Part shown: positions 523-44,659 of the stretch, piece by piece
How positions within the stretch are numbered: position 1 is the stretch's first letter
How the letters are laid out: each line of letters begins with the position of its first letter
From: Nitrospirota bacterium
GTDB taxonomy: Bacteria; Nitrospirota; Thermodesulfovibrionia; Thermodesulfovibrionales; Dissulfurispiraceae
NCBI GenBank assembly: GCA_021791055.1
Contig: JAJYXI010000017.1
Span: 1 to 50,878, forward strand
Direction of reading: 5' to 3'
Length of the DNA stretch: 50,878 nt
The notes under the pieces: model-generated
Databases searched by the model: none
What the model saw: the letters and a program-made list of their open reading frames with translations, nothing else
What the model was told of the DNA's origin: nothing
Translations under genes and position numbers: made by a program

Positions 523-1185
523 CTACTGCTGCAAAACATTTACCCCTTCAGGAGGGGAGAATTCAAAAAGCTTATCCTTCAGTTCGGTATTGATTTTTAC
601 ATCCTTTAGATAAATATCGATCCTGTTGGATAAAGCATCAATGATGGAGAGAGATTCTATTGGAAATTCCTCGCTGGATGTGGTGATTTCCACAGAAACT
701 ATATTGCCCATTGGTTTTTTAGGTTTCAATAGAAGTTTCTGTTCCGACTTTATCGATACATCGAATTCGTTTTTTATATTCCCGAAACCGCCCAAAAGGG
801 CTATGGGAGCCTGTCCATAGGTTGCCCTGTCGAATTTGGCCTTGAATGCCTGCTTCTCCTTTTTTTGGTAAATGATTATGTTATCTCCGTTGATGTATAC
901 AGTCTGAGGCTTGTCTCCTTTGTATTCCCATCTCATCTTTGGAGACTTTATAAAAAATTGCCCTTTGTAAGTGTCAGCCCTTTTTAAGTCTTTTATGTAA
1001 CTTTTTTGAATGAAATTTCCCCTGATGTCCTTTATATTTTCGTACGCCTTCTGGATTCTTGTGACTTCATCATCGGCAAGGCAAAAGGCTAAAGGTAAAA
1101 GGCTAAAGGTAAAGAAATAAAATAAAAATATTGTTAAGGTCTTACACCTATTGCCTCTCGCCTTATACCCTTTGCCTGTTTTCAT
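523..1185 (-). CDS. lolA: LolA, periplasmic chaperone for outer-membrane lipoproteins
   Basis: LolA carries lipoproteins released by LolCDE across the periplasm to the outer membrane. After the signal peptide the protein shows the family's opening: a helix (VTRIQKAYENIKDIRGNF), then FIQKSY, the strand GQFFIKSPKMRWEY and later DNIIIYQKKEKQ. It is 220 residues, normal for LolA. The ATG shares its A with the TAA stop of ftsK, so the two genes are translationally coupled. The signal peptide (about residues 1-37) is unusual: it is encoded almost wholly by an inverted repeat (see the repeat entry inside this gene). The mature part looks intact and functional. Confidence 0.9.
   Translation of the reverse strand: MKTGKGYKARGNRCKTLTIFLFYFFTFSLLPLAFCLADDEVTRIQKAYENIKDIRGNFIQKSYIKDLKRADTYKGQFFIKSPKMRWEYKGDKPQTVYINGDNIIIYQKKEKQAFKAKFDRATYGQAPIALLGGFGNIKNEFDVSIKSEQKLLLKPKKPMGNIVSVEITTSSEEFPIESLSIIDALSNRIDIYLKDVKINTELKDKLFEFSPPEGVNVLQQ
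1080..1176. repeat. Heptad hairpin element coding the LolA signal peptide
   Basis: The left arm at 1080-1114 is a tandem of 7-nt units (AGGCTAA / AGGTAAA). The right arm at 1141-1176 is its imperfect reverse complement, with an A/T-rich loop of about 26 nt. Read on the minus strand, the right arm gives the basic n-region (GKGYKARGNRCK), the loop gives IFLFYFF and the left arm gives TFSLLPLAFCLA. Confidence 0.75.
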
Positions 1186-5262: not shown

Positions 5263-6506
5263 CAGATGATTCCCTCCTTTAGTGTTTCAGGGAGTGTAAA
5301 TATAAATTTTGCGCCGCCATCTCCGGAGTCTTCAACCCAGATATTCCCGCCGTGTGCATTTACCACAAGCTTGCAAAATGTCAGCCCTAATCCGGTACTT
5401 GTCTTTCTTTGTTTGGTCTCCCCTTCCATCTGGAAAAATTTGTCAAATATCCTGTCCTTCATCTCATCCGGGACGCCCTTGCCCCGATCTGCTATGCTGA
5501 TTACGGTTTCTTTTTTATTTTCATGATATTGAATTGTTAAACTAATCCTTCCCCTATCAGGGGAATGCTCTATAGCATTCCTCAATAGATTCGTAATTAC
5601 CCTTCCTATAAGATTTTCGTCTATATAACAAATGTGAGAATTTCCTTCCACTGCCAGCTCGATATTTCTGCGCGATAAGACATTTTTAAGGGATGTTATT
5701 TCCCTTTTTGACAAGGTGTAGATATCTGTCTCTTCCCTGTATATCCTTATCTTCCCTTCTTCTAACTTCAGTACATCGAGAATGTTCATGACCATATTTT
5801 GCATCTTATATACATCTTCAGCAGCAAGGTTGACATACTCAAACTGCTGTGGTGTAAGCGGTTCATAGTTCAGCATGTCTAAGTTAGCCATAATTGTGGT
5901 GATCGGTCCTTTAAGGTCGTGGACTATAAAACTTGTGAGGCTTGTCTTTAACTCATCCAGTTCTACAAGTTGTTTGTTTGCACTTTCAAGCTGCTTCACT
6001 TTTTTTTCCAGCAGCTCCTTTGTTTGCTCGGCATAAATGTAAGGTGCCAGATGTTGAGCTATATCGGTTGCTATAACCTCTTGTTCTATGGTAAAGGGTC
6101 TGCCTCCTTCCGAATCAGTGAGATTTATTACACCAAGCTTTTTATCAAAGTATTTAATTGGAACACTGAGGGAGTCTTCCGAAGAGTACTGAGAAAATTC
6201 CAGAGGTTTGAAAAATGACCGTCTTTTTCCATCAGAATGAAACGGTTCATCGTCTATCAATGCTCGTGTTGCAATTGTGACATCGCACAGTTTTCTCTTA
6301 AGGCCGATTATCTCCGGATTTGTTGATGCCTTTACCTCCAGCGTCAGGTCTTCCGGACTGACTATCATTATGGAGCATCTTTTGACCTTCAGGAGTTCTG
6401 TAAGGATATTAACCACTTTCTGCAGTTTCTCATCAAATGTAATGTCCTGCTGTAAAAGGGTCTTGCCGATTTTAGATTTTTCGCCTGTATTGTATGACAT
6501 GGTCAT
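5262..6506 (-). CDS. GAF-domain sensor histidine kinase
   Basis: Soluble kinase with no membrane helix. A GAF-type sensor spans about residues 20-160, followed by a coiled coil (QTKELLEKKVKQLESANKQL), a HisKA dimerisation domain with H-box FIVHDLKGPITTI (His196), and HATPase_c with N-box NLLRNAIEHS, G1 ADRGKGVP and G2 STGLGLTFCK. It autophosphorylates and should phosphorylate the adjacent receiver-TPR protein. The start overlaps the rimO stop by 4 nt, so it is expressed from the rimO side. The GAF ligand cannot be told from sequence. Confidence 0.88.
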   Translation of the reverse strand: MTMSYNTGEKSKIGKTLLQQDITFDEKLQKVVNILTELLKVKRCSIMIVSPEDLTLEVKASTNPEIIGLKRKLCDVTIATRALIDDEPFHSDGKRRSFFKPLEFSQYSSEDSLSVPIKYFDKKLGVINLTDSEGGRPFTIEQEVIATDIAQHLAPYIYAEQTKELLEKKVKQLESANKQLVELDELKTSLTSFIVHDLKGPITTIMANLDMLNYEPLTPQQFEYVNLAAEDVYKMQNMVMNILDVLKLEEGKIRIYREETDIYTLSKREITSLKNVLSRRNIELAVEGNSHICYIDENLIGRVITNLLRNAIEHSPDRGRISLTIQYHENKKETVISIADRGKGVPDEMKDRIFDKFFQMEGETKQRKTSTGLGLTFCKLVVNAHGGNIWVEDSGDGGAKFIFTLPETLKEGII

Positions 6507-7900
6507 AGTATAACACCCTTCAAGTCGTAATCAAAGGCATCCACGATCGCAACAGTTACAAGGTCACCTACTTTTACAGTAGGCAGTAAGGAGTAAGCAG
6601 TAGGCACTTTTTGCTCATTATTTTTTCTACTGCTTACTGCATAGTGCTTAGTGCCTACTTCAATGATCACCACTCCGTCTATCTCAGGTGCATGGGAATA
6701 AAGCCTTGCAATGGCTATATCCCCATCAATTTCATCAATTATAGCCTCATATTTTTTGCCAAGCAACTCTCTGTTTTTCTCGAGCGAGATTGCTGCCTGT
6801 CTTTGCATCATCTCATCAAGCCTTCTGTCTTTAGTCTTCTCGGGCACCTGTCCTTTGATCGTTGATGAAGGCGTTCCTTCCTCTTTTGAATACTTAAAGA
6901 CGCCGAGCCTGTCGAACCTAATTTCTTCTATGAAATCCACAAGTCCATGAAAATCTTCTTCTGTCTCGCCCGGGAATCCGACAATAAAAGTAGTCCTGAG
7001 CGCAACTCCGGGGATAGTGCGTCTGAGGTTTCTTATCAGCTTTATGTATTCCTTTCTTGATCCCCTTCTCCCCATTAGCCTCAATATCTTATCCTCTGAA
7101 TGCTGGAGAGGTATGTCGAGGTATTTCTGTATTTTATCCTCGGTGGCTATAAACTCAAGCAGTTCATTACTTATTTCTGTTGGATAAAGATAAAGGAGGC
7201 GAATTCGGAAATCCCCATCTATGGATGCCAAATCCTTTAGTAAAGATACAAGGGTATATCCCTTTAATTCTTTTCCATAGTTAGTAATATCCTGTGCCAC
7301 GAGTATCAATTCTCTGATGCCCTTCTGTATATATTCCTCTGCCTCTCTCAATATCTGTTCCGGCGGAATGCTCCTGAACTTTCCTCTTATGGATGGTATT
7401 ACGCAGAAGGTGCATTTCTTATCACAGCCCTCGGCTATTTTGAGATAGGCATAGGACGAGGCGATAGGCGATGGGCGATGGGCAACAGGCATTTTGGTAT
7501 TCCCTATCGCCTCTCGCCTATAGCCTATAGCCAAATCCTTACAGTATTCAATTATGTTGCTATCTTCTCCAACTCCAAAGATAGCGTCTATTTCAGGGAT
7601 CTCTTTCAAAAGTTCATCCCTGTATCTTTGTGCAAGGCAGCCGAATACAATAATCTTCGCCCTTTTGCCTTTCATCCTGGCAAGTCTGAGTATCTCTTCT
7701 ATGGACTCTTCCTTTGCATCCCTTATAAAGCCGCATGTGTTTACGAGGATAATATCCGCATCATTTGCATCATCCACATGGACAAAGCCCTCTGATGCAA
7801 ATCTTCTTGCCAAATGTCCTGAATCAACAACATTTTTCGGACAGCCGAGGGTTGTGATGTTAATTTTAGTCAATTTGTTTCTCACCAGGTGTTTATTCAT
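6503..7900 (-). CDS. rimO: Ribosomal protein S12 methylthiotransferase RimO, with two in-frame repeat inserts
   Basis: Radical-SAM enzyme that methylthiolates the conserved aspartate of ribosomal protein S12. Domains in order: N-terminal UPF0004 domain (TLGCPKNVVDSGHLARRF, NTCGFI, FGCLAQRY), radical SAM core with GCDKKCTFCVIPSIRG, and a C-terminal TRAM domain. At 465 residues it is longer than usual. Two stretches that do not fit the family are coded by hairpin repeats: about residues 122-148, between the N-terminal domain and the SAM core, and about residues 412-441, inside the TRAM domain. Both keep the frame and leave catalytic cysteines intact, so the enzyme is probably active. Confidence 0.93.
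   Translation of the reverse strand: MNKHLVRNKLTKINITTLGCPKNVVDSGHLARRFASEGFVHVDDANDADIILVNTCGFIRDAKEESIEEILRLARMKGKRAKIIVFGCLAQRYRDELLKEIPEIDAIFGVGEDSNIIEYCKDLAIGYRREAIGNTKMPVAHRPSPIASSYAYLKIAEGCDKKCTFCVIPSIRGKFRSIPPEQILREAEEYIQKGIRELILVAQDITNYGKELKGYTLVSLLKDLASIDGDFRIRLLYLYPTEISNELLEFIATEDKIQKYLDIPLQHSEDKILRLMGRRGSRKEYIKLIRNLRRTIPGVALRTTFIVGFPGETEEDFHGLVDFIEEIRFDRLGVFKYSKEEGTPSSTIKGQVPEKTKDRRLDEMMQRQAAISLEKNRELLGKKYEAIIDEIDGDIAIARLYSHAPEIDGVVIIEVGTKHYAVSSRKNNEQKVPTAYSLLPTVKVGDLVTVAIVDAFDYDLKGVIL
6578..6660. repeat. Heptad hairpin element inside rimO (TRAM domain)
   Basis: Left arm 6578-6606 is AGTAGGC / AGTAAGG / AGTAAGC / AGTAGGC. Right arm 6627-6660 is its imperfect reverse complement. 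The insert is in frame and codes about 28 extra residues between EVG and VKVGDLVTV of RimO. Confidence 0.75.
7460..7532. repeat. Heptad hairpin element inside rimO (interdomain linker)
   Basis: Left arm 7460-7490 is built from AGGCGAT / GGGCGAT / GGGCAAC units; right arm 7503-7532 is the imperfect reverse complement. It codes the extra linker that precedes ASSYAYLKIAEGC in RimO. Confidence 0.75.
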
Positions 7901-8603: not shown

Positions 8604-9696
8604 AGTGCTGGTACCCCTCTGTCTTTAAGGCAGATTCCCTGCCTGTTTTATCTATAACAACTCTGTCCTTTTCGATGATTTCACCTATGCAGGTTATTTT
8701 TACCCCCCCCGTCCCCCCCTTACTAAGGGGGGGATAGAGGGGGGGTATATCTTTTAGTAAGGATGGAATAGGGGAGGTCGGTGGCGCTGTGAATAAGAGT
8801 TCGTAGTCCTCACCGCCTGATGTTGCGAGGTGTAAAGGGTCTAAGCCCATAATCTCAGCCGCTTTTGTTGTCTCTTCAGATACGGGTATCCTGTCGAGAT
8901 AAACCCTTGCGCCAACATTGCTTTCATCGCATACCCTGCACAGGTCAAGAAATAAGCCGTCGCTTATGTCTATCATGGATGTGGCATAATTCACAAAATT
9001 ACTTGAATCTCTCGCAACAGGCATGAGATGCCTTTTGATTAAAGGCTCTGCAATATTCCAATCGATAACTTGAGAGGTTGAGAGGTTGAGAGGTTGAGAG
9101 GTTAAGATTTCTTTGCTCCAGACTTCAGACCCCAAACTTTTAACGCTATCTCTTGCACCAGCAGTGAGCCTCTTCAGTATCTCCAGTCCGCATGCAGAAC
9201 CGCCTACAGTGCCTGTTACATAAATCTTGTCGCCGACAGATGCCCCTCTTCTTGTAACGATTTTATCTCCTGTGCCGATTATTGTAGCAGAAAGAACCAT
9301 GTCGTTTTCTGCTGCACACAAGTCTCCGCCGGCCAGATTTAGTCCATAAATATCCATTGCACCGGAAATCCCTTCATACATTTTCCAGAAAATTTGTTCG
9401 TCAGCATCTTTTTTCATTGCTATATTCAGGAATAGATACTTTGGTTTGCCGCCCATTGCAAAAATATCACTCACATTGACGGATACCAATTTAAAGCCAA
9501 GATGGAAAGGGGAGGTAAAGCTCAAATCAAAATGAATCCCCTCGTTCATCATATCCGTTGTGACAAGGATTTTTTCTTGAGGGGCTATTACAGCAGCATC
9601 ATCGCCGATGCCGACCATGATGCTGCTGTCTGTGGAGCTAAACCTTTTTCTTACTTCTTGTAGAAGTTTTAACTCTCCTATTTGACGGAGTTTCAT
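8587..9696 (-). CDS. thiL: Thiamine-monophosphate kinase, with two repeat-derived inserts
   Basis: Phosphorylates thiamine monophosphate to the diphosphate cofactor. The N terminus [15 protein letters not shown] and GIGDDAAVI, then [19 protein letters not shown] and [11 protein letters not shown], are ThiL signatures. At 369 residues it is 40 or so longer than usual. The excess lies in two repeat-coded stretches: about residues 197-209 (an 8-nt unit repeated four times) and about residues 308-331 (a G/C-rich palindrome coding [12 protein letters not shown]). The start fits the family and lies 59 nt inside the 3' end of lon. Confidence 0.92.
8701..8747. repeat. G/C-rich palindrome inside thiL
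   Basis: A near-perfect palindrome centred on 8723, with arms 8701-8722 and 8724-8747 made of C-runs and G-runs around CCTTACTAAGG. It codes [14 protein letters not shown] in ThiL. The long homopolymers could also attract sequencing error, but the frame is kept. Confidence 0.7.
9070..9106. repeat. 8-nt tandem repeat inside thiL
   Basis: TTGAGAGG occurs four times in a row, followed by TTAAG. On the coding strand it gives [13 protein letters not shown]. It is a single arm, with only a weak partner arm in the adjoining 40 nt. Confidence 0.8.
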
Positions 9697-23184: not shown

Positions 23185-24351
23185 ATGCAGAGGTTATTTC
23201 CAATCATAATAGCAGAGCAACAGTGCAGCAGAGCGGCAGTGCGACAGCCATACTATTTACTGCTTATTATTTGCTGTTTGTTGTTTGTGCTTATTATTCC
23301 ATTTGAATCGGATGCAGAGGAAGTAATAAAAAAGGGTGAAATGCTCGATCTCCAGAGATGCATCGGGATCGCAATAAAAAGGCATCCAAACATTATTGCT
23401 GCCATGAGTACAGTGGATGTGAATCAGAGCAGGATCGGACAGGCACAGGCAAATTATTATCCGCAGTTGAACTGGTCATCAGGCTACAGCAGATACTCTC
23501 CTGTTTCCAGAACCACAAGCCGCTCCTTTGATGAATACACGAGCAGCGCCACACTCAAGCAGAATATCTATGACTTCGGCAAAACCGCAACGCAGGTGGA
23601 TATACAGAGACTGAATCTAAATTCGTCCCGCTTGGACCTTGAGAATACATCAGAACAATTAATCATTAATGTCAAACAGGCATACTATGGACTGCTGCTG
23701 GCAAAAAGGAACAGGGATGTAGCCCTGGAGACCGTTAAACAATTTGAGCAGCACCTCGAACAGGCCAGAGGATTTTATGAAGTCGGCACAAAACCGAAAT
23801 TCGATGTGACAAAGGCAGAGGTGGACCGGAGCAATGCTAAATTAAACCTGATAAAGGCAGAAAATGCATTAAGGATAGCAAAGGTGAACCTCAACAACAC
23901 CCTCGGTCTGCCTGAGGCGCCCGAATATGAGATCGAGGATAATCTTCTCTTCAAGAAATACGAGATACCCCTTGAAGGTGCGATCAAAAGGGCATATGAA
24001 AACAGGCCCGACCTTAAATCAATAATTACAAAAAAGAATGCAGCAGAATCCTCTATAGAACTTGCAAAGAAAGGCTATTATCCAACATTATCGGGCAATG
24101 CAGATTACAACTGGGCAGGAGAAACATTCCCCCTCAACCATGGATGGGATGTGGGTGTGACCGTCACATTTCCAATATTCAGCGGATTTTTAACAAAATA
24201 CCAGGTAAATGAAGCAAGGTCAAATCTGAATGTTTTAAAGGCAAATGAAGAGGCGTTAAGGCAGGGCATATTCCTTGAGGTTCAACAGGCATATCTGGTG
24301 CTAATCTTGAGAAGGCCGAGGCATCCCTTGTCGATGCACAGAGGACAATGA
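23185..24351 (+). pseudogene. TolC-family protein, C-terminally truncated by a deletion junction
   Basis: Signal peptide (about 1-46), then TolC/OEP helices: LDLQRCIGIAIKRHPNIIAA, TLKQNIYDFGKTATQVDIQR, GFYEVGTKPKFDVTKAEVDR and ALRQGIFLEVQQAYL. At residue 370 or so the family match stops dead near 24297, and the frame runs out in LRRPRHPLSMHRGQ. From the same point, another frame reads as a MacA-like adaptor. About 50 C-terminal residues, including the last helix, are missing, so the channel is unlikely to fold. The signal peptide is coded by a hairpin repeat. Confidence 0.8.
23213..23290. repeat. Octad/heptad hairpin element coding a TolC-type signal peptide
   Basis: Left arm 23213-23247 is CAGAGCAA / CAGTGCAG / CAGAGCGG / CAGTGCGA. 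Right arm 23259-23290 is a looser reverse complement (TACTGCTTATTATTTGCTG...). The left arm gives EQQCSRAAVRQ and the right arm gives LLLIICCLLFVL. Confidence 0.6.
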
Positions 24352-29831: not shown

Positions 29832-30654
29832 GCCAAAGGCAGAAGTTAAGAGGTTGAGAGGTTTAGAGGATGAGAATTCCCTGTCTTTATTATTTTTTTT
29901 CTTAACCTCTTATCTTCTCATCTTCTTATCTTCTGTTTCTTTTGCCGCTACTCCTGAACCTCCTTCCACGCCGCCCAATTATGTGGTTGATCTTGCCGGA
30001 ATTATCAGAGACGATGCAGAGGCACAACTAAACTCATACCTGAGAGAGCTTGAGCAAAAGACCACGGCACAGGTCGTTGTCCTTACAATTCAAAGCCTTG
30101 ACGGAGAAGACATTGCAGGATTTTCCATAAGAATGGCTGAGAAATGGAAGCTTGGTCAGAAAGGGAAGGATAATGGCTTGCTTATAACTGTAGCCCTACA
30201 AGACAGAAAATACCGCTTTGAGACAGGATATGGACTTGAAGGTATTCTGCCCGACAGCCTTGTAGGCTCCATAGGAAGGCAATACCTTGTACCGTATTTC
30301 AAAAAGGGTGATTATAGTACAGGTATATTTAATACAACACTTGCAACGGTTCGAATTATATCTGCCAGCGAAGGTGTTGAGATAACAGGGATGCCTGAAA
30401 TAAAGGTAAAAGGCAAAAGGGTAAAGGGAATCGGGCTTTTTGATGCTATAATAGTCTTTGCTGTTTTTGCAGTAGTCGTTTATTTATTTATAAGACATCC
30501 GAGGCTCCTTCTCTTGCTCCTGTTCAGTTCTTCCATGGGAGGCAGAAGGGGCGGATGGTCAGGAGGCGGAGGCTTTGGTGGAGGCGGTTTTGGTGGAGGC
30601 GGCGGTGGCGGCGGAGGAGGATTTGGAGGCGGCGGTGCATCAGGAGAATGGTAA
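29815..30654 (+). CDS. TPM-domain membrane protein (YgcG family)
   Basis: Signal peptide (about 1-43, ending VSFAA), a TPM_phosphatase domain (about 50-190: YVVDLAGIIRDDAEAQLNSY, TTAQVVVLTIQSLDGEDIAG, RKYRFETGYGLEGILPDS), one transmembrane helix near 212-230 and a Gly-rich tail ending GGGGASGEW. This is the YgcG layout, often paired with lemA as here (32 nt downstream). Function unclear; proposed roles concern the envelope. The signal peptide is coded by a hairpin repeat, and a second arm codes KVKGKRVKG before the helix. Confidence 0.88.
   Translation: MNSSRKPKAEVKRLRGLEDENSLSLLFFFLTSYLLIFLSSVSFAATPEPPSTPPNYVVDLAGIIRDDAEAQLNSYLRELEQKTTAQVVVLTIQSLDGEDIAGFSIRMAEKWKLGQKGKDNGLLITVALQDRKYRFETGYGLEGILPDSLVGSIGRQYLVPYFKKGDYSTGIFNTTLATVRIISASEGVEITGMPEIKVKGKRVKGIGLFDAIIVFAVFAVVVYLFIRHPRLLLLLLFSSSMGGRRGGWSGGGGFGGGGFGGGGGGGGGGFGGGGASGEW
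29841..29934. repeat. Octad hairpin element coding the TPM-protein signal peptide
   Basis: Left arm 29841-29876 is GTTAAGAG / GTTGAGAG / GTTTAGAG / GATGAGAA. Right arm 29899-29934 is its reverse complement with few mismatches. The left arm gives the charged n-region (EVKRLRGLEDEN) and the right arm gives LTSYLLIFLSS. Confidence 0.8.
30404..30430. repeat. Single heptad-repeat arm inside the TPM gene
   Basis: AGGTAAA / AGGCAAA / AGGGTAA, the same units as in the lolA element. In frame, it codes KVKGKRVKG just before the transmembrane helix, where basic residues would hold the inside of the membrane. No partner arm nearby. Confidence 0.6.
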
Positions 30655-31331: not shown

Positions 31332-33812
31332 ATGCCCAATAAAATAGATATACCTGTTACGGGAATGACATGCGCTGCATGCACTGCTGCCATTGAAAGG
31401 GCACTGCCAAAAATAGAGGGAATAAAAGGTGTTGTAGTAAATTTCCCTGCAGAGAGGGCTGCTGTTGAATTTGCTGACCCTAAAAATCCCGTCCAATTGC
31501 AGACCATTATTGATAGCATTAAGGACGAAGGCTACGGCGTTTCCACAATAAAAGTGGAGTTCGCAGTAAAGGGAATGACCTGTGCAGCGTGTGTTGGAGC
31601 AGTGGAAAGGGCTTTGAAAGAACTCTATGGAGTTCTTACTGTTACTGTCAATCTCGCAGCAGAAAAGGCTTCTGTCGAATATATCCCTACCATAGTCGGG
31701 TTTGAAGACTTTAGAAGGATAATAAAAGAGGCAGGTTATTCTGCAGAGCAGATAACAGAAGAATTTGTTGATAGAGAGCGTGAGCAGAGGGAAAGGGAGT
31801 TTCAGGCATTAAAGAGACAATTCATTGTTAGCGCAATGCTTGCGGCACCGATTATCATCGGAAGCATGCTCACAATTCCTGTATTATCAAACTGGTATCT
31901 ATTATTCCTCCTTGCAACGCCTGTACAGTTCTGGAGCGGAATGAGGTTTCACAAGGCTGCCCTTTCAGCCCTCAGACACCGCACGACAAATATGAATACG
32001 CTTATAAGCGTTGGAACAACATCGGCTTATGTCTATAGTCTCGCTGCCACATTTATGCCGCAGTTGTTTTTCAAAGGCGGAGTAACTCCCCATATATATT
32101 TCGATACATCTGCAACCATAATAACCCTTATCCTTTTGGGAAAGCTGCTTGAAGCACGGGCTAAGGGTAAGACATCAGAGGCCATAAGAAAACTCATGGG
32201 GTTACAGGCAAAGACAGCCTCTGTTTTAAGGGATAGCGCTGAAAAAGAGGTTCCAATAGAAGAGGTAATGGTCGGCGATATTGTCATTGTGAGGCCCGGC
32301 GGGAGGATTCCTGTGGACGGTGAGGTTATTGCTGGCTACTCAACAGTTGACGAGTCAATGCTTACAGGAGAAAGCCTGCCTGTAGAAAAATCTTCAGGAG
32401 ATAAGATATTCGGGGGAACTGTAAACAAGGCGGGCAGCTTTAAGCTCAGGGCATTGAGGATTGGCAAAGAGACAGCCCTTGCGCAGATAATAAGGCTTGT
32501 TGAAGAGGCTCAGGGAAGCAAGGCGCCAATACAGAGGCTTGCTGATAAAGTCGCATCCATATTCGTTCCCACCGTAATAGGGATCTCAGTGGTCACCTTC
32601 TTTGTATGGTTTATATTTGGTCCCAAGCCATCAGTTACCCTCGCATTGATGAATTTCATCGCAGTGCTTATCATAGCCTGTCCCTGCGCATTGGGCCTTG
32701 CAACGCCGACTGCGATAATGGTTGGAACAGGAAAGGGAGCAGAGAAAGGGATACTCATAAGGGATGCAGAGGCGCTGGAATTGTCTCATAAGATTGAGGC
32801 TGTGATATTGGACAAGACAGGAACGATAACCAAAGGCGAGCCCGAGGTTGTTGATATTACGGGGGTTAATGGCACATCCCCTGATGCCATTCTTCAGATT
32901 GCTGCATCGGCAGAAAAACTTTCGGAACATCCCCTCGGGCAGGCAATAGTAAGGAAGGCAATTGATAAGAATATTAAGATTTATGAACCTGCCGAGTTTG
33001 TAGCAATACCGGGTGGCGGAATAAAAGCGAAAATCAGGAGTCAAGAGTTAAGAGTTAAGAGTCAAGAACCCCCGGAACTCCGAACTCCTAACTCTGAACT
33101 CTATTTAGATGTTTTTATAGGCAACGAAGGCATGATGCAGAAGGAAGGCATAAATATATCGCCGGCGAAGATGTTGTCTGATAAAATATCATCAAAAGCG
33201 AAGACCCCTGTGTTTATGGCTGTGAACAACGAGATTAAAGCAGTCTTCTCAATCGCCGATACAATAAAGGAAGGATCTGCAGAGGCAATAGAAGCGCTTA
33301 AATCCATGGGAATAGAAGTCGTGATGCTTACCGGTGATCATCAGAATACCGCTCATGCAATCGCAAGGGAGGTTGGTATTGAAAGGTTCTTTGCCGAGGT
33401 TCTGCCTGACCAGAAGGTTGAGGCTGTAAGGAGGATAAAGTCAGAAGGCAAGATAACTGCCATGGTCGGCGATGGGATTAATGATGCACCGGCCCTTGCA
33501 GAAGCCGATGTGGGGATTGCAATAGGCACAGGTACAGATATAGCCATCGAGGCATCGGATATAACATTAATAAAAGGCAATCTGAAAAGCGTTGTTGATG
33601 CCATAAGGTTAAGCAAACTTACTATTAGGACAATTAAGCAGAATTTATTCTGGGCATTCTTTTATAATGTAGTGGGTATTCCGGTTGCAGCAGGCCTGCT
33701 TTATCCATTTGGAGGCCCGCTGCTTAACCCGATGATTGCTTCAGCAGCGATGGCATTCAGCTCTGTTTCTGTTGTTAGTAATTCTTTAAGACTGCGAAAG
33801 AAAACTATTTAA
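31332..33812 (+). CDS. copA: Copper-translocating P1B-type ATPase, with a repeat insert
   Basis: Exports Cu(I). Two N-terminal metal-binding domains, each with GMTCAAC (Cys14/17 and Cys84/87), eight membrane helices, the TGE actuator motif ([11 protein letters not shown]), the CPC metal site [13 protein letters not shown], the phosphorylation motif [10 protein letters not shown], the nucleotide-domain HP motif (SEHPLGQA) and [16 protein letters not shown]. 826 residues. Between GGGIKAKI and DVFIG in the nucleotide-binding domain, about 27 residues are coded by a hairpin repeat. The preceding TATAAAAT box and the absence of a ribosome-binding site suggest its own promoter. Confidence 0.95.
33036..33102. 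repeat. Heptad hairpin element inside copA
   Basis: Left arm 33036-33068 uses AGAGTTA / AGAGTCA units; right arm 33074-33102 (AACTCCG / AACTCCT / AACTCTG) is the reverse complement. In frame, it codes [20 protein letters not shown] in the nucleotide-binding domain of CopA. Confidence 0.8.
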
Positions 33813-38301: not shown

Positions 38302-38745
38302 ATGCAGGTTATTCTTAAAGAGGATGTTAAAGATTTAGGTCACATAGGGGATTTGGTCAATGTCAAGGAGGGATATGCGAGGAATTTTCTGATACCAAAG
38401 GGGCTTGCTGTAGAGGCAAATCCTAAAAATCTCAAGGCACTGGAGCACGAAAAGAGAAAGATACAGGAACTCGTAAAGAAGGCAAAGACTGCTGCCGAGG
38501 AGCTCGCATCAAAGGTCTCAGGAACAACCGTTACAATAAAGGCCAAGGCAGGAGAGGAGGATAGGCTTTTCGGCTCTGTCACTGTCATGGATATTGCGGA
38601 TGCTCTGAAAAAAGAAGGCATGGATATTGACAAAAAGAAGATTGTAATGGAAGAACCCATAAAGAGGCTTGGCAATTATACGGTTAGTGTGAAGATACAT
38701 TCAGAGGTTTCAGCACAGCTCAATGTTCAGGTAGTAAGTGAGTAA
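38302..38745 (+). CDS. rplI: 50S ribosomal protein L9
   Basis: Structural protein of the large subunit. Starts [20 protein letters not shown] and contains [19 protein letters not shown], the L9 signature, plus a long connecting helix and a C-terminal domain ([16 protein letters not shown]). 147 residues. Ribosome-binding site AAGGAGAG. The stop codon is part of the first repeat unit of a hairpin element that fills the gap to dnaB; rplI-dnaB is a classical neighbour pair. Confidence 0.96.
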
Positions 38746-38841
38746 ATGAGTAAATGGGTAAAAGAGTAGATGAGTAAATTAGAAAAAATTGATTAAAATT
38801 TTAAAATCTCATCAACTCATATACTCATGTACTCATTAACC
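38740..38841. repeat. Octad hairpin element between rplI and dnaB
   Basis: Left arm 38740-38780 has five 8-nt units (GAGTAAAT, GAGTAAAT, GGGTAAAA, GAGTAGAT, GAGTAAAT). Right arm 38808-38841 is their imperfect reverse complement (CTCATCAA...CTCATTAA). It contains the rplI stop and ends 5 nt before the dnaB ribosome-binding site. No gene in it. Confidence 0.8.
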
Positions 38842-41054: not shown

Positions 41055-41737
41055 GTAGCCAGAAGTCAGAAGTCAGAAGTGCAGTTATTTTAGCCGGCGG
41101 TGAGAATCGAAGATTTCCTACCATCAAGAGTTTTATAAAAGTTAATGATTCCTCAATTATCGAGAAAAATATTGCCTTACTGAAAGAGATGTTTGATGAG
41201 GTATTTATCAGCAGCAATATGCCAGAGATATATTTTTATCTTGGAGCGCCACTAATAGGTGATGTTCTTCCATCAAGAGGGCCTATGTCCGGAATATATT
41301 CGTCACTAATTAATGCAAGAGGAGACACTGTTTTTGTTGTAGCCTGCGACATGCCGTTTGTGAAAAAAGAGGTTATTTCTTTTATTTGTAAAAAGCACGC
41401 GGAATCGCTGAATTCTAAATCTATTCGGGGGGAATTTCAAAGGGGGGACACAATGTCCCCCCTTTGCCCTGATGCCACAATCCCGATATATAACAAAGAA
41501 CCACAGCCCCTGTTCGGTGTATACTGTAAGACAATTTTGCCTTATCTTGAGGATTGTGTGCTGAATGATAAGACATCAATGAAGCGTCTGTTAAGTGAAA
41601 TTAACACTAATTTTATAGAAGAGTCTGATATAATGACAATAGACCCTGAAGGCAGGTCATTTGTTAATATAAATACGATGGAAGACTATGAAAAAATAGC
41701 TCATGGCTCATGGCTGGCTCATAGTAGAAAACTATGA
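41051..41737 (+). CDS. mobA: Molybdenum cofactor guanylyltransferase MobA, with repeat-derived segments
   Basis: Adds GMP to molybdopterin to make the bis-MGD cofactor. VILAGGENRRFPTIKSFIKV is the nucleotide-binding signature (slightly divergent from LAGG.s.RmG.dK), with VVACDMPFVKKE as the metal site and PLFGVYCKTILPYLEDC near the end. 228 residues. Three segments are coded by repeats: the N terminus (SQKSEVRS), about residues 125-138 by a G-rich palindrome, and the C terminus (AHGSWLAHSRKL). Activity is probable but not certain. Confidence 0.8.
   Translation: MSSQKSEVRSAVILAGGENRRFPTIKSFIKVNDSSIIEKNIALLKEMFDEVFISSNMPEIYFYLGAPLIGDVLPSRGPMSGIYSSLINARGDTVFVVACDMPFVKKEVISFICKKHAESLNSKSIRGEFQRGDTMSPLCPDATIPIYNKEPQPLFGVYCKTILPYLEDCVLNDKTSMKRLLSEINTNFIEESDIMTIDPEGRSFVNINTMEDYEKIAHGSWLAHSRKL
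41061..41081. repeat. Single heptad-repeat arm at the mobA start
   Basis: AGAAGTC / AGAAGTC / AGAAGTG codes QKSEVRS at the N terminus of MobA, directly before the nucleotide-binding motif. The same unit recurs inside alr. Confidence 0.65.
41427..41466. repeat. G-rich palindrome inside mobA; copy 2
   Basis: Arms 41438-41450 and 41454-41466 pair perfectly over 13 bp (CAAAGGGGGGACA with its complement), preceded by GGGGGGAATTT. It is the reverse-orientation twin of the element after lemA. In frame, it codes RGEFQRGDTMSPLCP. Confidence 0.75.
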
Positions 41738-41983: not shown

Positions 41984-43090
41984 GTGAACAGAGGTGCCAT
42001 TGCTGAAATAGATTTAAATTCTATTTCCAATAATCTCAGGGTTATAAAAGACCTGTCCAATAACCGTCCTGTAATAGCCGTTGTAAAGGCAGATGCCTAT
42101 GGGCATGGCGCTGTGGATATTTCGAGAAAACTGGTCAATGAAGTGGATTATCTCGCAGTAGCCTTTACAGGAGAGGCAAGGGAATTAAGGGATTCAGGCA
42201 TAAATATTCCCATCATTGTGCTTTTTGATCCTGATGCAGCGGATATTTTCAAATATAATCTCATCCCTGTGATTGGAGATAAAAAAACAGCCATTACCTT
42301 ATCTAAAGAGGCAGAGAAAAATAACAGAAATGTCAGCGTGCATGTTAAGGTTGATACAGGAATGGGAAGGCTGGGTTTTACAGAAAATACGACCAAAGAG
42401 ATATTGGAAATTGCGAATCTAAGAGGCATAAGCATTGATGGTGTAATGAGCCATTTTTCCGAGGCAGATTTATTAGATACATCCTTTGCCATGATGCAGA
42501 TTAACAGATTTAATGCTATTAAGGCTGAACTGTTAAATAACGGCCTGAATGTAAGGCTTTTTCATATAGCCAACAGCGCTGCTGTTGCGACACTGCCTGA
42601 ATCCCGTTTTGATGCAGTAAGGCCAGGATTGATGTTGTATGGATACTCGCCAATACAGAAGACAGAAGTCAGAAGTCAGAAGTCAGAACTAATTCCTGCA
42701 ATGACCGTTAAAGCAAAAATATTAGCCTTGAGAAGACTCCCGACAGACACTCCCATAAGCTACGGCAGGACTTTTATTACAAAGCGTGACAGCCTTATAG
42801 GTGTTATACCGATTGGTTATGCCGATGGCTTCAGCAGACGGTTCTCAAACAATGCTGAAGTGCTTGTAAGTGGTAAAAAAGTCCCTGTGGTCGGCCGTGT
42901 TTGTATGGACCTGACAATGATTGATTTAACAGATGTAGAACATGTGGAAGAAGGAGATGAAGCTATCATTATCGGAAGGCAGGGGAATGAATCTATTGAT
43001 GCAGCCGAGCTTGCATTAAGGGCAGATACGATCCCCTATGAAATATTAACATCTCTTGGAAATATGGCGAAAAGGGTTTATAATAGCTGA
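41984..43090 (+). CDS. alr: Alanine racemase, with a repeat insert
   Basis: PLP enzyme making D-alanine for peptidoglycan. The PLP-lysine motif AVVKADAYGHGAVDISRKL, DTGMGRLGF, AVRPGLMLYGYSP, and the second catalytic region with PISYGRTFITKR and the Tyr in IPIGYADGFSRRF are all present. 368 residues. The start is GTG. About residues 225-236 (QKTEVRSQKSEL) are coded by five AGAAGTC-type heptads at the junction to the C-terminal beta domain; no catalytic residue is affected. Confidence 0.93.
   Translation: MNRGAIAEIDLNSISNNLRVIKDLSNNRPVIAVVKADAYGHGAVDISRKLVNEVDYLAVAFTGEARELRDSGINIPIIVLFDPDAADIFKYNLIPVIGDKKTAITLSKEAEKNNRNVSVHVKVDTGMGRLGFTENTTKEILEIANLRGISIDGVMSHFSEADLLDTSFAMMQINRFNAIKAELLNNGLNVRLFHIANSAAVATLPESRFDAVRPGLMLYGYSPIQKTEVRSQKSELIPAMTVKAKILALRRLPTDTPISYGRTFITKRDSLIGVIPIGYADGFSRRFSNNAEVLVSGKKVPVVGRVCMDLTMIDLTDVEHVEEGDEAIIIGRQGNESIDAAELALRADTIPYEILTSLGNMAKRVYNS
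42657..42691. repeat. Heptad tandem repeat inside alr
   Basis: AGAAGAC, AGAAGTC three times, then AGAACTA: five 7-nt units, 35 nt, single arm. It codes QKTEVRSQKSEL at an interdomain surface loop of the racemase. Confidence 0.8.
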
Positions 43091-44174: not shown

Positions 44175-44659
44175 AAAGATTTTTTATTGTATTCTGTGTT
44201 CTGTATTCTATATTTTTAACATCATGTTCTTTGCCTCGCATAATTATCCTCGACGACCCGCTGACCCCTGAAGAACATATAAACCTTGGCGTTGCGTATG
44301 AGAAAAAGGGAGAAGTTGATAATGCCATCGAGGAGTTCAAAAAGGCATCGAAGAAACTCCCCGTTGCTTATCTCTATCTGGGCAATGCATATATGCAGAA
44401 AGGTAATCTCGATGAAGCGGAGAAATATTATAAAAAGGCAATAAAAAAACAGCCCGACCTTGCCGATGCCTATAACAACCTTGCATGGCTTTATTATAAT
44501 AAGGCTAAAGGCTCAGGGCTAACGGCTGAAGATATAAATGAAATCCTTAAAGAAGCGGAAAGGCTTGCCCTGAAGGCGCTGGAACTGAACCCTTCAAATG
44601 AGAACTATAAAGATACTCTCAATAAGCTTAGAGAATTAAAATCTAAAAATGGGCTATAA
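44078..44659 (+). CDS. TPR-repeat lipoprotein
   Basis: Lipobox LTSC follows a basic n-region (RRKIKRF) and hydrophobic FFIVFCVLYSIFL. Then come about three tetratricopeptide repeats: HINLGVAYEKKGEVDNAIEE, YLYLGNAYMQKGNLDEAEKY and LADAYNNLAWLYYNKAKG. 193 residues from the ATG at 44078, but the 97-nt overlap with the C39 gene and the unusually long n-region make the TTG at 44096 an alternative. Probably works with the C39 and PA2779-type proteins. Confidence 0.75.
   Translation: MEKDEFLDIADKKGVSSQFTRPCGQSAVRRKIKRFFIVFCVLYSIFLTSCSLPRIIILDDPLTPEEHINLGVAYEKKGEVDNAIEEFKKASKKLPVAYLYLGNAYMQKGNLDEAEKYYKKAIKKQPDLADAYNNLAWLYYNKAKGSGLTAEDINEILKEAERLALKALELNPSNENYKDTLNKLRELKSKNGL
44120..44212. repeat. 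Heptad repeat/hairpin across the C39-TPR gene junction
   Basis: Units CAGTCAG / CAGTCAG recur at 44120-44132 and 44150-44168. A looser right arm (ATTCTGTGTTCTGTATTCTA, 44191-44210) has the same unit length. It codes the C terminus of the C39 protein and, in a second frame, the signal peptide of the TPR lipoprotein. Confidence 0.5.

Follow-up and report, generated by a model that had tools for sequence, protein, structure and literature searches.

Two hairpin arrays in a Nitrospirota RimO gene as ordinary members of a class of short heptamer and octamer arrays lying mostly within genes

Short tandemly repeated repetitive sequences of cyanobacteria are heptanucleotide tandem arrays in the genome, and we know of no coding, paired and polar arrangement among them. 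Rickettsia palindromic elements form hairpins and lie in frame inside genes, and the REP/REPIN sequences, which are not heptameric arrays, are mobilised by RAYT, a Y1 transposase. Here, we report on paired arrays of short repeats in rimO, the gene for the ribosomal protein S12 methylthiotransferase, of a Nitrospirota bacterium (GenBank assembly GCA_021791055.1). The whole stretch analysed, called the window below, is positions 1 to 50,878 of contig JAJYXI010000017.1, our contig C6 of a genome (G000) of 2.55 Mb in 87 contigs. The RimO segments belong to a class of arrays spread through the genome: tandem, imperfect and short (mostly 22–50 nucleotides, nt), with units of 7 or 8 nt. We consider this description secure, and RimO is an ordinary example of the class. 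Rickettsia palindromic elements are conserved in sequence across their copies, whereas the units of the arrays reported here differ from locus to locus; unlike the RAYT-mobilised REP/REPIN, these arrays persist in genomes in which no Y1 transposase was detected.

Described heptamer repeats are followed mostly as intergenic elements. Rehm et al. 2015 (PMC4692102) follow one unit family per organism, GGGAATC arrays in Xanthomonas and GGGGA(C/T)T in Nostoc, mention Calothrix heptanucleotides, and tentatively ascribe the bacterial heptamer excess, citing earlier work, to the DNA segment held in the polymerase active site. The Xanthomonas arrays are given there as mostly four units long, heterogeneous in their copies and 89–93% intergenic, and convergent inverted pairs number 70 in one genome and 75 in another; by our own reading of the word convergent, the G-rich arm may come first in these pairs. 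The TAACTGA direct repeats of Beggiatoaceae are dispersed, mostly intergenic and just upstream of starts, and MacGregor 2015 (PMC4679880) describes one unit, one indirect repeat only, and copies within open reading frames mainly at protein ends. REP/REPIN are presented as dispersed hairpins in PMC3733652 and PMC3116915, and for mammals, PMC7215372 and PMC2246262 place interstitial telomeric repeats at double-strand breaks.

The arrays reported here are like the Xanthomonas and Nostoc repeats in a 7-nt period standing far above the others, but period 8 stands out here too; convergent inverted pairs, as in Xanthomonas, are also present. Unlike the largely intergenic Xanthomonas arrays, 113 of 134 arrays in our family sample and 38 of 47 in our second sample are in genes, and many units occur in place of one: GGGAATC and GGGGA(C/T)T are both absent from the 22 units of G000, and the 27-genome sample has 78 units. 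Both the TAACTGA repeats and our arrays are dispersed heptamers, but ours are many-unit, mostly in genes and in part paired. The likeness to interstitial telomeric repeats is in the model only, i.e., arrays left at repaired breaks; those repeats are eukaryotic, of one hexamer, and made by telomerase. The class differs from the heptamer repeats described before, which are mainly intergenic, in that most of its arrays lie in genes, and no report on coding heptamer arrays in Nitrospirota was found in the open-licence literature searched. The bacterial heptamer excess is known yet unexplained, and the Xanthomonas/Nostoc and Beggiatoaceae studies treat heptamers as mainly intergenic. Through arrays within genes, bacteria may gain new protein segments in a manner that has had little explanation.

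Two hairpins in RimO

The gene rimO lies at 6503..7900 on the minus strand and encodes 465 amino acids (aa). The protein passes the RimO equivalog TIGR01125 (475.8 bits, cut-off 356.95), and the best solved structural match of its AlphaFold2 model in Foldseek is 4jc0, RimO of T. maritima. The reading frame is open across all 465 aa despite both arrays, and C19, C55, C87, C158, C162 and C165 are invariant in 20 aligned sequences (window's included); we take these six cysteines to be the three MTTase and three radical SAM cluster ligands.

Site 1 corresponds to approximately residues 122–146, the linker joining the MTTase and radical SAM domains. On the plus strand of the window, a purine-rich arm of AGGCGAT heptamers at 7459..7485 is followed by a pyrimidine-rich arm at 7500..7532; on the gene strand, these are the 3′ pyrimidine-rich and the 5′ purine-rich arm, respectively. 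The inverted arms (7459-7485/7500-7526) are 81% complementary and the lag-7 array spans 7459-7532. Site 2 corresponds to approximately residues 415–441, a loop in the TRAM domain, where inverted-repeat and lag-7 scans placed a purine-rich arm (AGTAGGC/AGTAAGC) at 6577..6606 and a pyrimidine-rich arm (ACTGCTT) at 6628..6659, both on the plus strand; its inverted arms (6578-6606/6631-6659) are 83% complementary, with lag-7 arrays at 6577-6606 and 6628-6654. The gene-strand RNA of either site folds better than 200 of 200 dinucleotide shuffles, with z −6.85 for site 1 (7445-7540) and z −3.90 for site 2 (6570-6670). The RimO model has a mean predicted local distance difference test (pLDDT) score of 84.2, and its stretches of at least three residues with pLDDT below 50 are 1–6, 127–145 and 416–438; the last two are the array segments, which are the only internal stretches of such low confidence. 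One hairpin fills the MTTase–radical SAM linker and the other extends a TRAM loop, and both segments are predicted to be disordered.

The two sites differ in what they add. Site 1 adds no extra length: its linker is only about 2 residues longer than in 4jc0 by alignment, and a variable linker is present at this place in all 29 family RimO orthologues. The segment is 105 nt in six of the 29. Five of the six 105-nt orthologues, G000, G006 and G007 of the genus we label g1 and G011 and G013 of genus g5, have AGGC-type sequence in common, and the site 1 array is therefore old, being common to two genera. A different, 8-nt array occupies site 1 in G012 (g5) and in G030, by eye in both and for G012 also by orthologue comparison. 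At site 2, 84 RimO residues align to 61 positions of the TRAM_2 profile (PF18693), i.e., the array lengthens the TRAM domain by approximately 23 residues; the segment is 102 nt in G000 vs below 80 nt in 24 of 29 family orthologues. The site 2 units vary among relatives: AGTAAGC in G000, ACAGAAT in G006, AGAAGCC in G007, AGCAGTC in G012 and CAGAGGA-like in G023. Long loops in which no array was detected occur there in G014 (102 nt) and G015 (117 nt).

An earlier note, made from the letters of this window, had described two independent hairpin inserts of 27–30 residues in RimO, with different units and with frame and cysteines kept, one between domains and one in the TRAM domain. Both hairpins are present, the units do differ between the sites (AGGCGAT vs AGTAAGC/AGTAGGC), frame and cysteines are intact as stated above, and the in-frame array segments fall in loops predicted to be disordered. 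Only site 2 adds length, however. The segment at site 1 matches ordinary, array-free RimO linkers closely in length, which is not the case for site 2, so that an extra 27–30 residues at site 1 is not borne out; and two independent recent insertions are rejected for site 1, which has the ordinary linker length and is common to two genera.

We also observed by eye, in RimO of G030 and G009 (L033 and L022), a near-perfect non-heptameric palindrome in the TRAM loop instead of an array.

A class of arrays within genes and its protein chemistry

Three samples were scanned. The G000 sample consists of the window and 20 stretches of 20 kb (451 kb); the family sample covers approximately 1.41 Mb from 27 family genomes (G001, G005, G020 and G030 lie outside it, and G009 is covered by 6 kb only) and gave 134 arrays under a stricter scan, in line with the frequent occurrence that the earlier note had proposed; the second sample, 398 kb, was fetched later and is non-random, its G006, G023 and G013 contigs being ones that had already appeared in hit lists. 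In the G000 sample, a first lag scan gave 64 period-7 and 24 period-8 arrays vs 0 in a shuffled copy (the period-7 count is 64 or 45 depending on the threshold, and 0 in the shuffled copy), while each other period from 2 to 13 gave 1–5 arrays, and 0–1 when shuffled, one count in each being a run of N. A revised scan, which skips N and splits arrays differently, gave 68 period-7 and 27 period-8 arrays, with 0–4 at the other periods from 3 to 15 and 34 at the harmonic 14. Extrapolated, the genome would hold roughly 380 period-7 and 150 period-8 arrays. The second sample gave 33 period-7 and 14 period-8 arrays, with 1–5 at other periods except 14 (19). Array length is narrow: all 37 period-7 arrays of G000 with a score of at least 15 measure 25–49 nt, 24 of them 31–34 nt, and the 47 arrays of the second sample span 22–62 nt. 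The array-bearing genera of the family sample are g1, g5, g10, g11 and g15, with a single array in g13, and no arrays were found in the family-sample stretches from g2, g3, g4, g6, g7, g8, g12 and g14.

Most arrays fall within open reading frames, at about the rate expected if they were placed at random. In G000, 58 of 68 period-7 and 12 of 27 period-8 arrays are more than 90% inside called genes, which against a coding fraction of 0.89 indicates that period-7 arrays do not avoid genes and that period-8 arrays avoid them somewhat. By the same measure the 113 genic arrays of the family sample are accompanied by 13 at gene edges and 8 intergenic ones.

For comparison with orthologues, 52 of 115 coding array loci were retained (63 without an orthologue under the filters were dropped). 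Array regions differ strongly between orthologues, with an identity of 0.325 and a gap in 84% of 563 comparisons, which derive from the 52 loci and are not independent, vs an identity of 0.717 and a gap in 11% at control positions in the same gene pairs (n = 4962). The same places are re-used: when the compared genome is array-rich, the orthologous region holds an array in 182 of 291 cases, and when it is array-poor, in 12 of 272 (a split set by hand from the family-sample counts, with G016 and G025 classed as poor despite traces of arrays), where random-region controls gave 37 of 4000 and 5 of 4000, respectively. Within genus g1, 64 comparisons gave a near unit in 28, another unit in 24 and none in 12. 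Relative to array-poor orthologues, net length differs by only +1.5 aa on average (median +1), and of 32 loci, 17 are longer and 14 shorter; clean insertion as a general rule is rejected on this ground. The fragmentation of G000 into 87 contigs could raise the suspicion of an assembly artefact of a draft genome; we hold this to be highly improbable, since like arrays are present in G008, a single contig of 2.37 Mb, near units recur at matching sites in congeners, and frames stay open.

The units are many and dispersed. There are 78 distinct units in the 134 arrays of the family sample and 22 in the 37 arrays of G000. The unit AAGTCAG recurs in 12 arrays of the 27 genomes, at unlinked loci. With up to two mismatches, AGGCGATAGGCGAT has 88 matches in the G000 genome vs 15 for the reversed control. 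For AGGCRATAGGCRAT, matches clearly outnumber those of the control in the genomes of g1 and g5 but not in G030, where the two counts are equal (16 vs 16). Three AGAAGTC units in tandem (up to two mismatches, overlapping matches counted) occur in 52 of 245 Nitrospirota genomes, with 58 matches in G000 and 0 in the control. Dispersal through the genome, the patchy distribution across the phylum and the C7/G7 palindromes in the array-bearing loops would suit a mobile repeat family (similar to REP/REPIN, miniature inverted-repeat transposable elements or Rickettsia palindromic elements) that a transposase moves and that genes tolerate. We think this unlikely: no element is constant among the 78 units, net length change is near zero, and although G000 has 4 matches to the Y1 transposase (PF01797), none was found in array-bearing G011 (98% complete) and G029 (66% complete) among the 31 family genomes searched. 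Microsatellite slippage, in which 7-mers expand locally wherever the protein tolerates them and units shared between loci stem from common seeds and codon usage, would agree with the occupation of variable loops and with the bacterial heptamer excess reported before (PMC4692102), but it fits poorly with the narrow array length and with units recurring at unlinked loci, and it does not predict the opposite paired arms and their polarity described below; this origin, too, we regard as improbable.

As neither 7 nor 8 can be divided by 3, successive units of an array fall in all three reading phases, and the base composition of the array thus sets its chemistry. Of the 113 arrays in coding sequence, the coding strand is purine-rich in 61, with a mean Kyte-Doolittle hydropathy of −1.43, and pyrimidine-rich in 52, with +0.57; QKSEVRSQKSE (hydrophilic) and LLPLAFCL (hydrophobic) are example peptides of the two strands. 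Array base composition correlates with hydropathy at rho −0.83 in the 27-genome sample and −0.77 in the second sample, largely as a consequence of the genetic code, the biological part being where each type survives. Arrays are over-represented at N-termini: 30 of 113 (26.5%, expected 11.5%) lie within the first 40 codons, 19 of these 30 being pyrimidine-rich (odds ratio 2.6, p 0.033), and in the second sample 10 of 38 do so where 4.6 were expected. Of 25 genes whose first 45 codons include an array, some of them mutual orthologues, 20 have an N-terminal stretch that a hydropathy rule classes as hydrophobic, vs 261 of 791 background genes. In five N-terminal genes with both arms detected, two of them mutual orthologues, the order is always charged then hydrophobic, so that one hairpin looks as if it spells an apparent signal-peptide n-region and core. 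The earlier note had proposed selection on frame and position alone. This seems too narrow: composition tracks hydropathy and place, and arrays mostly occupy an existing loop with hardly any gain in length. We infer that an array survives if it preserves the frame, brings in no stop and suits its site, hydrophilic arrays being retained in loops and hydrophobic ones in signal-peptide-like N-termini. The array chemistry shows in what way a single DNA process can give rise to both disordered loops and hydrophobic N-termini. If this is right, numerous variable linkers and signal peptides of these lineages are repeat scars.

Polarity of the paired arms and the origin of the arrays

An inverted partner lies within 100 nt of 25 of the 134 arrays vs 1 of 134 in the control. 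We call a pair R>Y if the purine-rich arm comes first and Y>R in the opposite order. With the array score relaxed, R>Y pairs number 27 and Y>R pairs 1 among 28 inverted pairs, and all 8 inverted pairs of the second sample are R>Y, one of the 8 having been known by position beforehand. Adjacent arrays of any unit follow the same order: at score 10 there are 26 RY, 1 YR, 1 RR, 2 YY and 4 ambiguous cases, and at score 12 there are 17 RY, 1 RR, 1 YY and 2 ambiguous. The complete list of AGGC matches, examined by eye for neighbours within 120 nt, gave 7 convergent and 0 divergent pairs, 3 of the 7 being also among the 28 scored pairs. A strict gapped AGAAGTC pair pattern searched in the 52 genomes gave R>Y at 3 distinct places in 3 genomes and no Y>R, too few to weigh, one of the three being the G000 pair in L148 already among the adjacent-array pairs. 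Two rules, the purine-to-pyrimidine order of pairs and the match of array orientation to protein chemistry, are not tied to heptamer repeats in the literature searched, and the first constrains any origin model.

The hairpin spacers are AT-rich, with a mean G+C of 0.30 vs 0.39 in the outer flanks, very short spacers excluded; this was measured on 26 hand-listed pairs (window, L135–L154, L160, L163 and L207).

The origin that we tentatively favour, as plausible though short of probable, is repeat addition at broken ends. At a DNA break, the 3′ ends would grow by addition of a purine-rich 7- or 8-nt repeat, and their joining would then cost some local sequence. Such addition would yield single arrays as well as purine-to-pyrimidine pairs, the arms of which could be unequal, and would hardly alter loop length; it is the best fit to the polarity, the unequal arms and the near-zero length change. 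A rival is fold-back or template-switch copying, in which slippage builds a heptamer array on the nascent strand and the snapped-back strand is copied as the inverted arm; it would require neither a break nor a dedicated enzyme. In 19 of 26 RY pairs the two arms have identical or near units, as such copying would have it, while in the other 7 the units differ at more than two positions (by our judgement 5 are of different families and 2 are borderline) with the R>Y order kept; among these unequal pairs are two different arrays around a C7/G7 palindrome (L147 5190-5300). In the 26 hand-listed pairs, a best register between the arms does exist, with an identity of 0.78 vs 0.68 in other in-phase registers, but 0.78 is not above the identity within arms (0.80). 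Fold-back copying also leaves the dispersed sharing of units between loci unexplained. It needs no special gene, which agrees with the enzyme correlates tried, all negative, and we consider it possible but doubtful.

The enzyme correlates are as follows. RVT_1 was not matched in array-bearing G006, G011, G012 (88% complete), G013, G023 and G029, divergent enzymes being possible. Ku was found in 3 of the 31 family genomes (G000, G006 and G009), and Ku-bearing G009 has no array in its 6 kb sampled; with Ku so rare, classical non-homologous end joining is not needed. MutS_III is present in 30 of 31, all array-rich genomes included, the miss being G005. As causes, RAYT, reverse transcriptase, Ku and loss of MutS were each rejected; none tracks the arrays.

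Several points count against repeat addition at broken ends. No enzyme for such addition was identified among the families searched in the 31 genomes, and the rarity of Ku belongs here as well. The units include no single fixed word, their number (78) being a poor fit to a single RNA template, and purine richness is weak as a rule for them: at least five of seven purines on one strand are found in 66% of units vs 51% of random genomic words. The polarity could in part be general, since random inverted repeats also lean this way, with 15 R>Y vs 4 Y>R pairs among 19,999 random 21-mers, and the adjacent arrays of the second sample (RY 6, YY 2, RR 1) show it more weakly than the first. The better fit of the arms in one register leaves room for arm copying. 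The chemistry correlation is in part a product of the genetic code, and the 563 comparisons are interdependent; gene calls came from a simple script of our own and signal peptides were judged by hydropathy alone. No origin event was seen directly in these comparisons.

Going further, some Nitrospirota may have an unrecognised break-healing activity that adds purine-rich 7- or 8-nt repeats to 3′ ends, as a bacterial analogue of telomere-style healing, and whose head-to-head scars would be a standing source of new protein segments; we offer this as a speculation that is more probably wrong than right by a wide measure. If it were true, the purine arm would give charged disordered loops, the pyrimidine arm hydrophobic cores and the full hairpin whole signal peptides.

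Further arrays in the window

Other genes of the window carry arrays of the same kind. LolA (minus strand) has a period-7 array in a hydrophobic, signal-peptide-like N-terminus at 1078..1109. In thiL, also on the minus strand, a period-8 array (AACCTCTC on the gene strand) lies at 9070..9107, and a second loop holds an in-frame C7/G7 palindromic repeat at 8701..8747; by eye, the same loop holds a similar palindrome in G011, while G007 has AGAGTTC heptamers there, G006 has AAATTCG heptamers and G008 a decayed sequence.

On the plus strand, paired period-8 arrays at 29841..29934 encode a charged and then hydrophobic N-terminal stretch of a TPM-domain protein, paired period-7 arrays lie at 33034..33102 in a copper P-type ATPase, and paired period-8 arrays at 38733..38836 straddle the end of the gene at 38302-38745 and run past it. 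Also on this strand are an N-terminal AGAAGTC array at 41060..41080 in a MobA-like nucleotidyltransferase (NTP_transf_3; under the MobA equivalog cut-off), an AGAAGTC array at 42655..42688 in alanine racemase, and a period-7 array at 44179..44214 in a TPR protein, within its hydrophobic N-terminus.

The AGAAGTC array of alanine racemase is at a matching place in G000 and in G023, which belongs to another genus (L196:13642-13674); the alanine racemase of the congener G008 has unrelated sequence there. A period-8 array at 23213-23247 covers codons 9–20 of an outer membrane efflux gene (OEP, TolC-like), and the G008 OEP gene is without it and has a shorter N-terminus. Elsewhere, at L147:5190-5300, the two heptamer arrays of different units that flank the C7/G7 palindrome both lie in one called gene.

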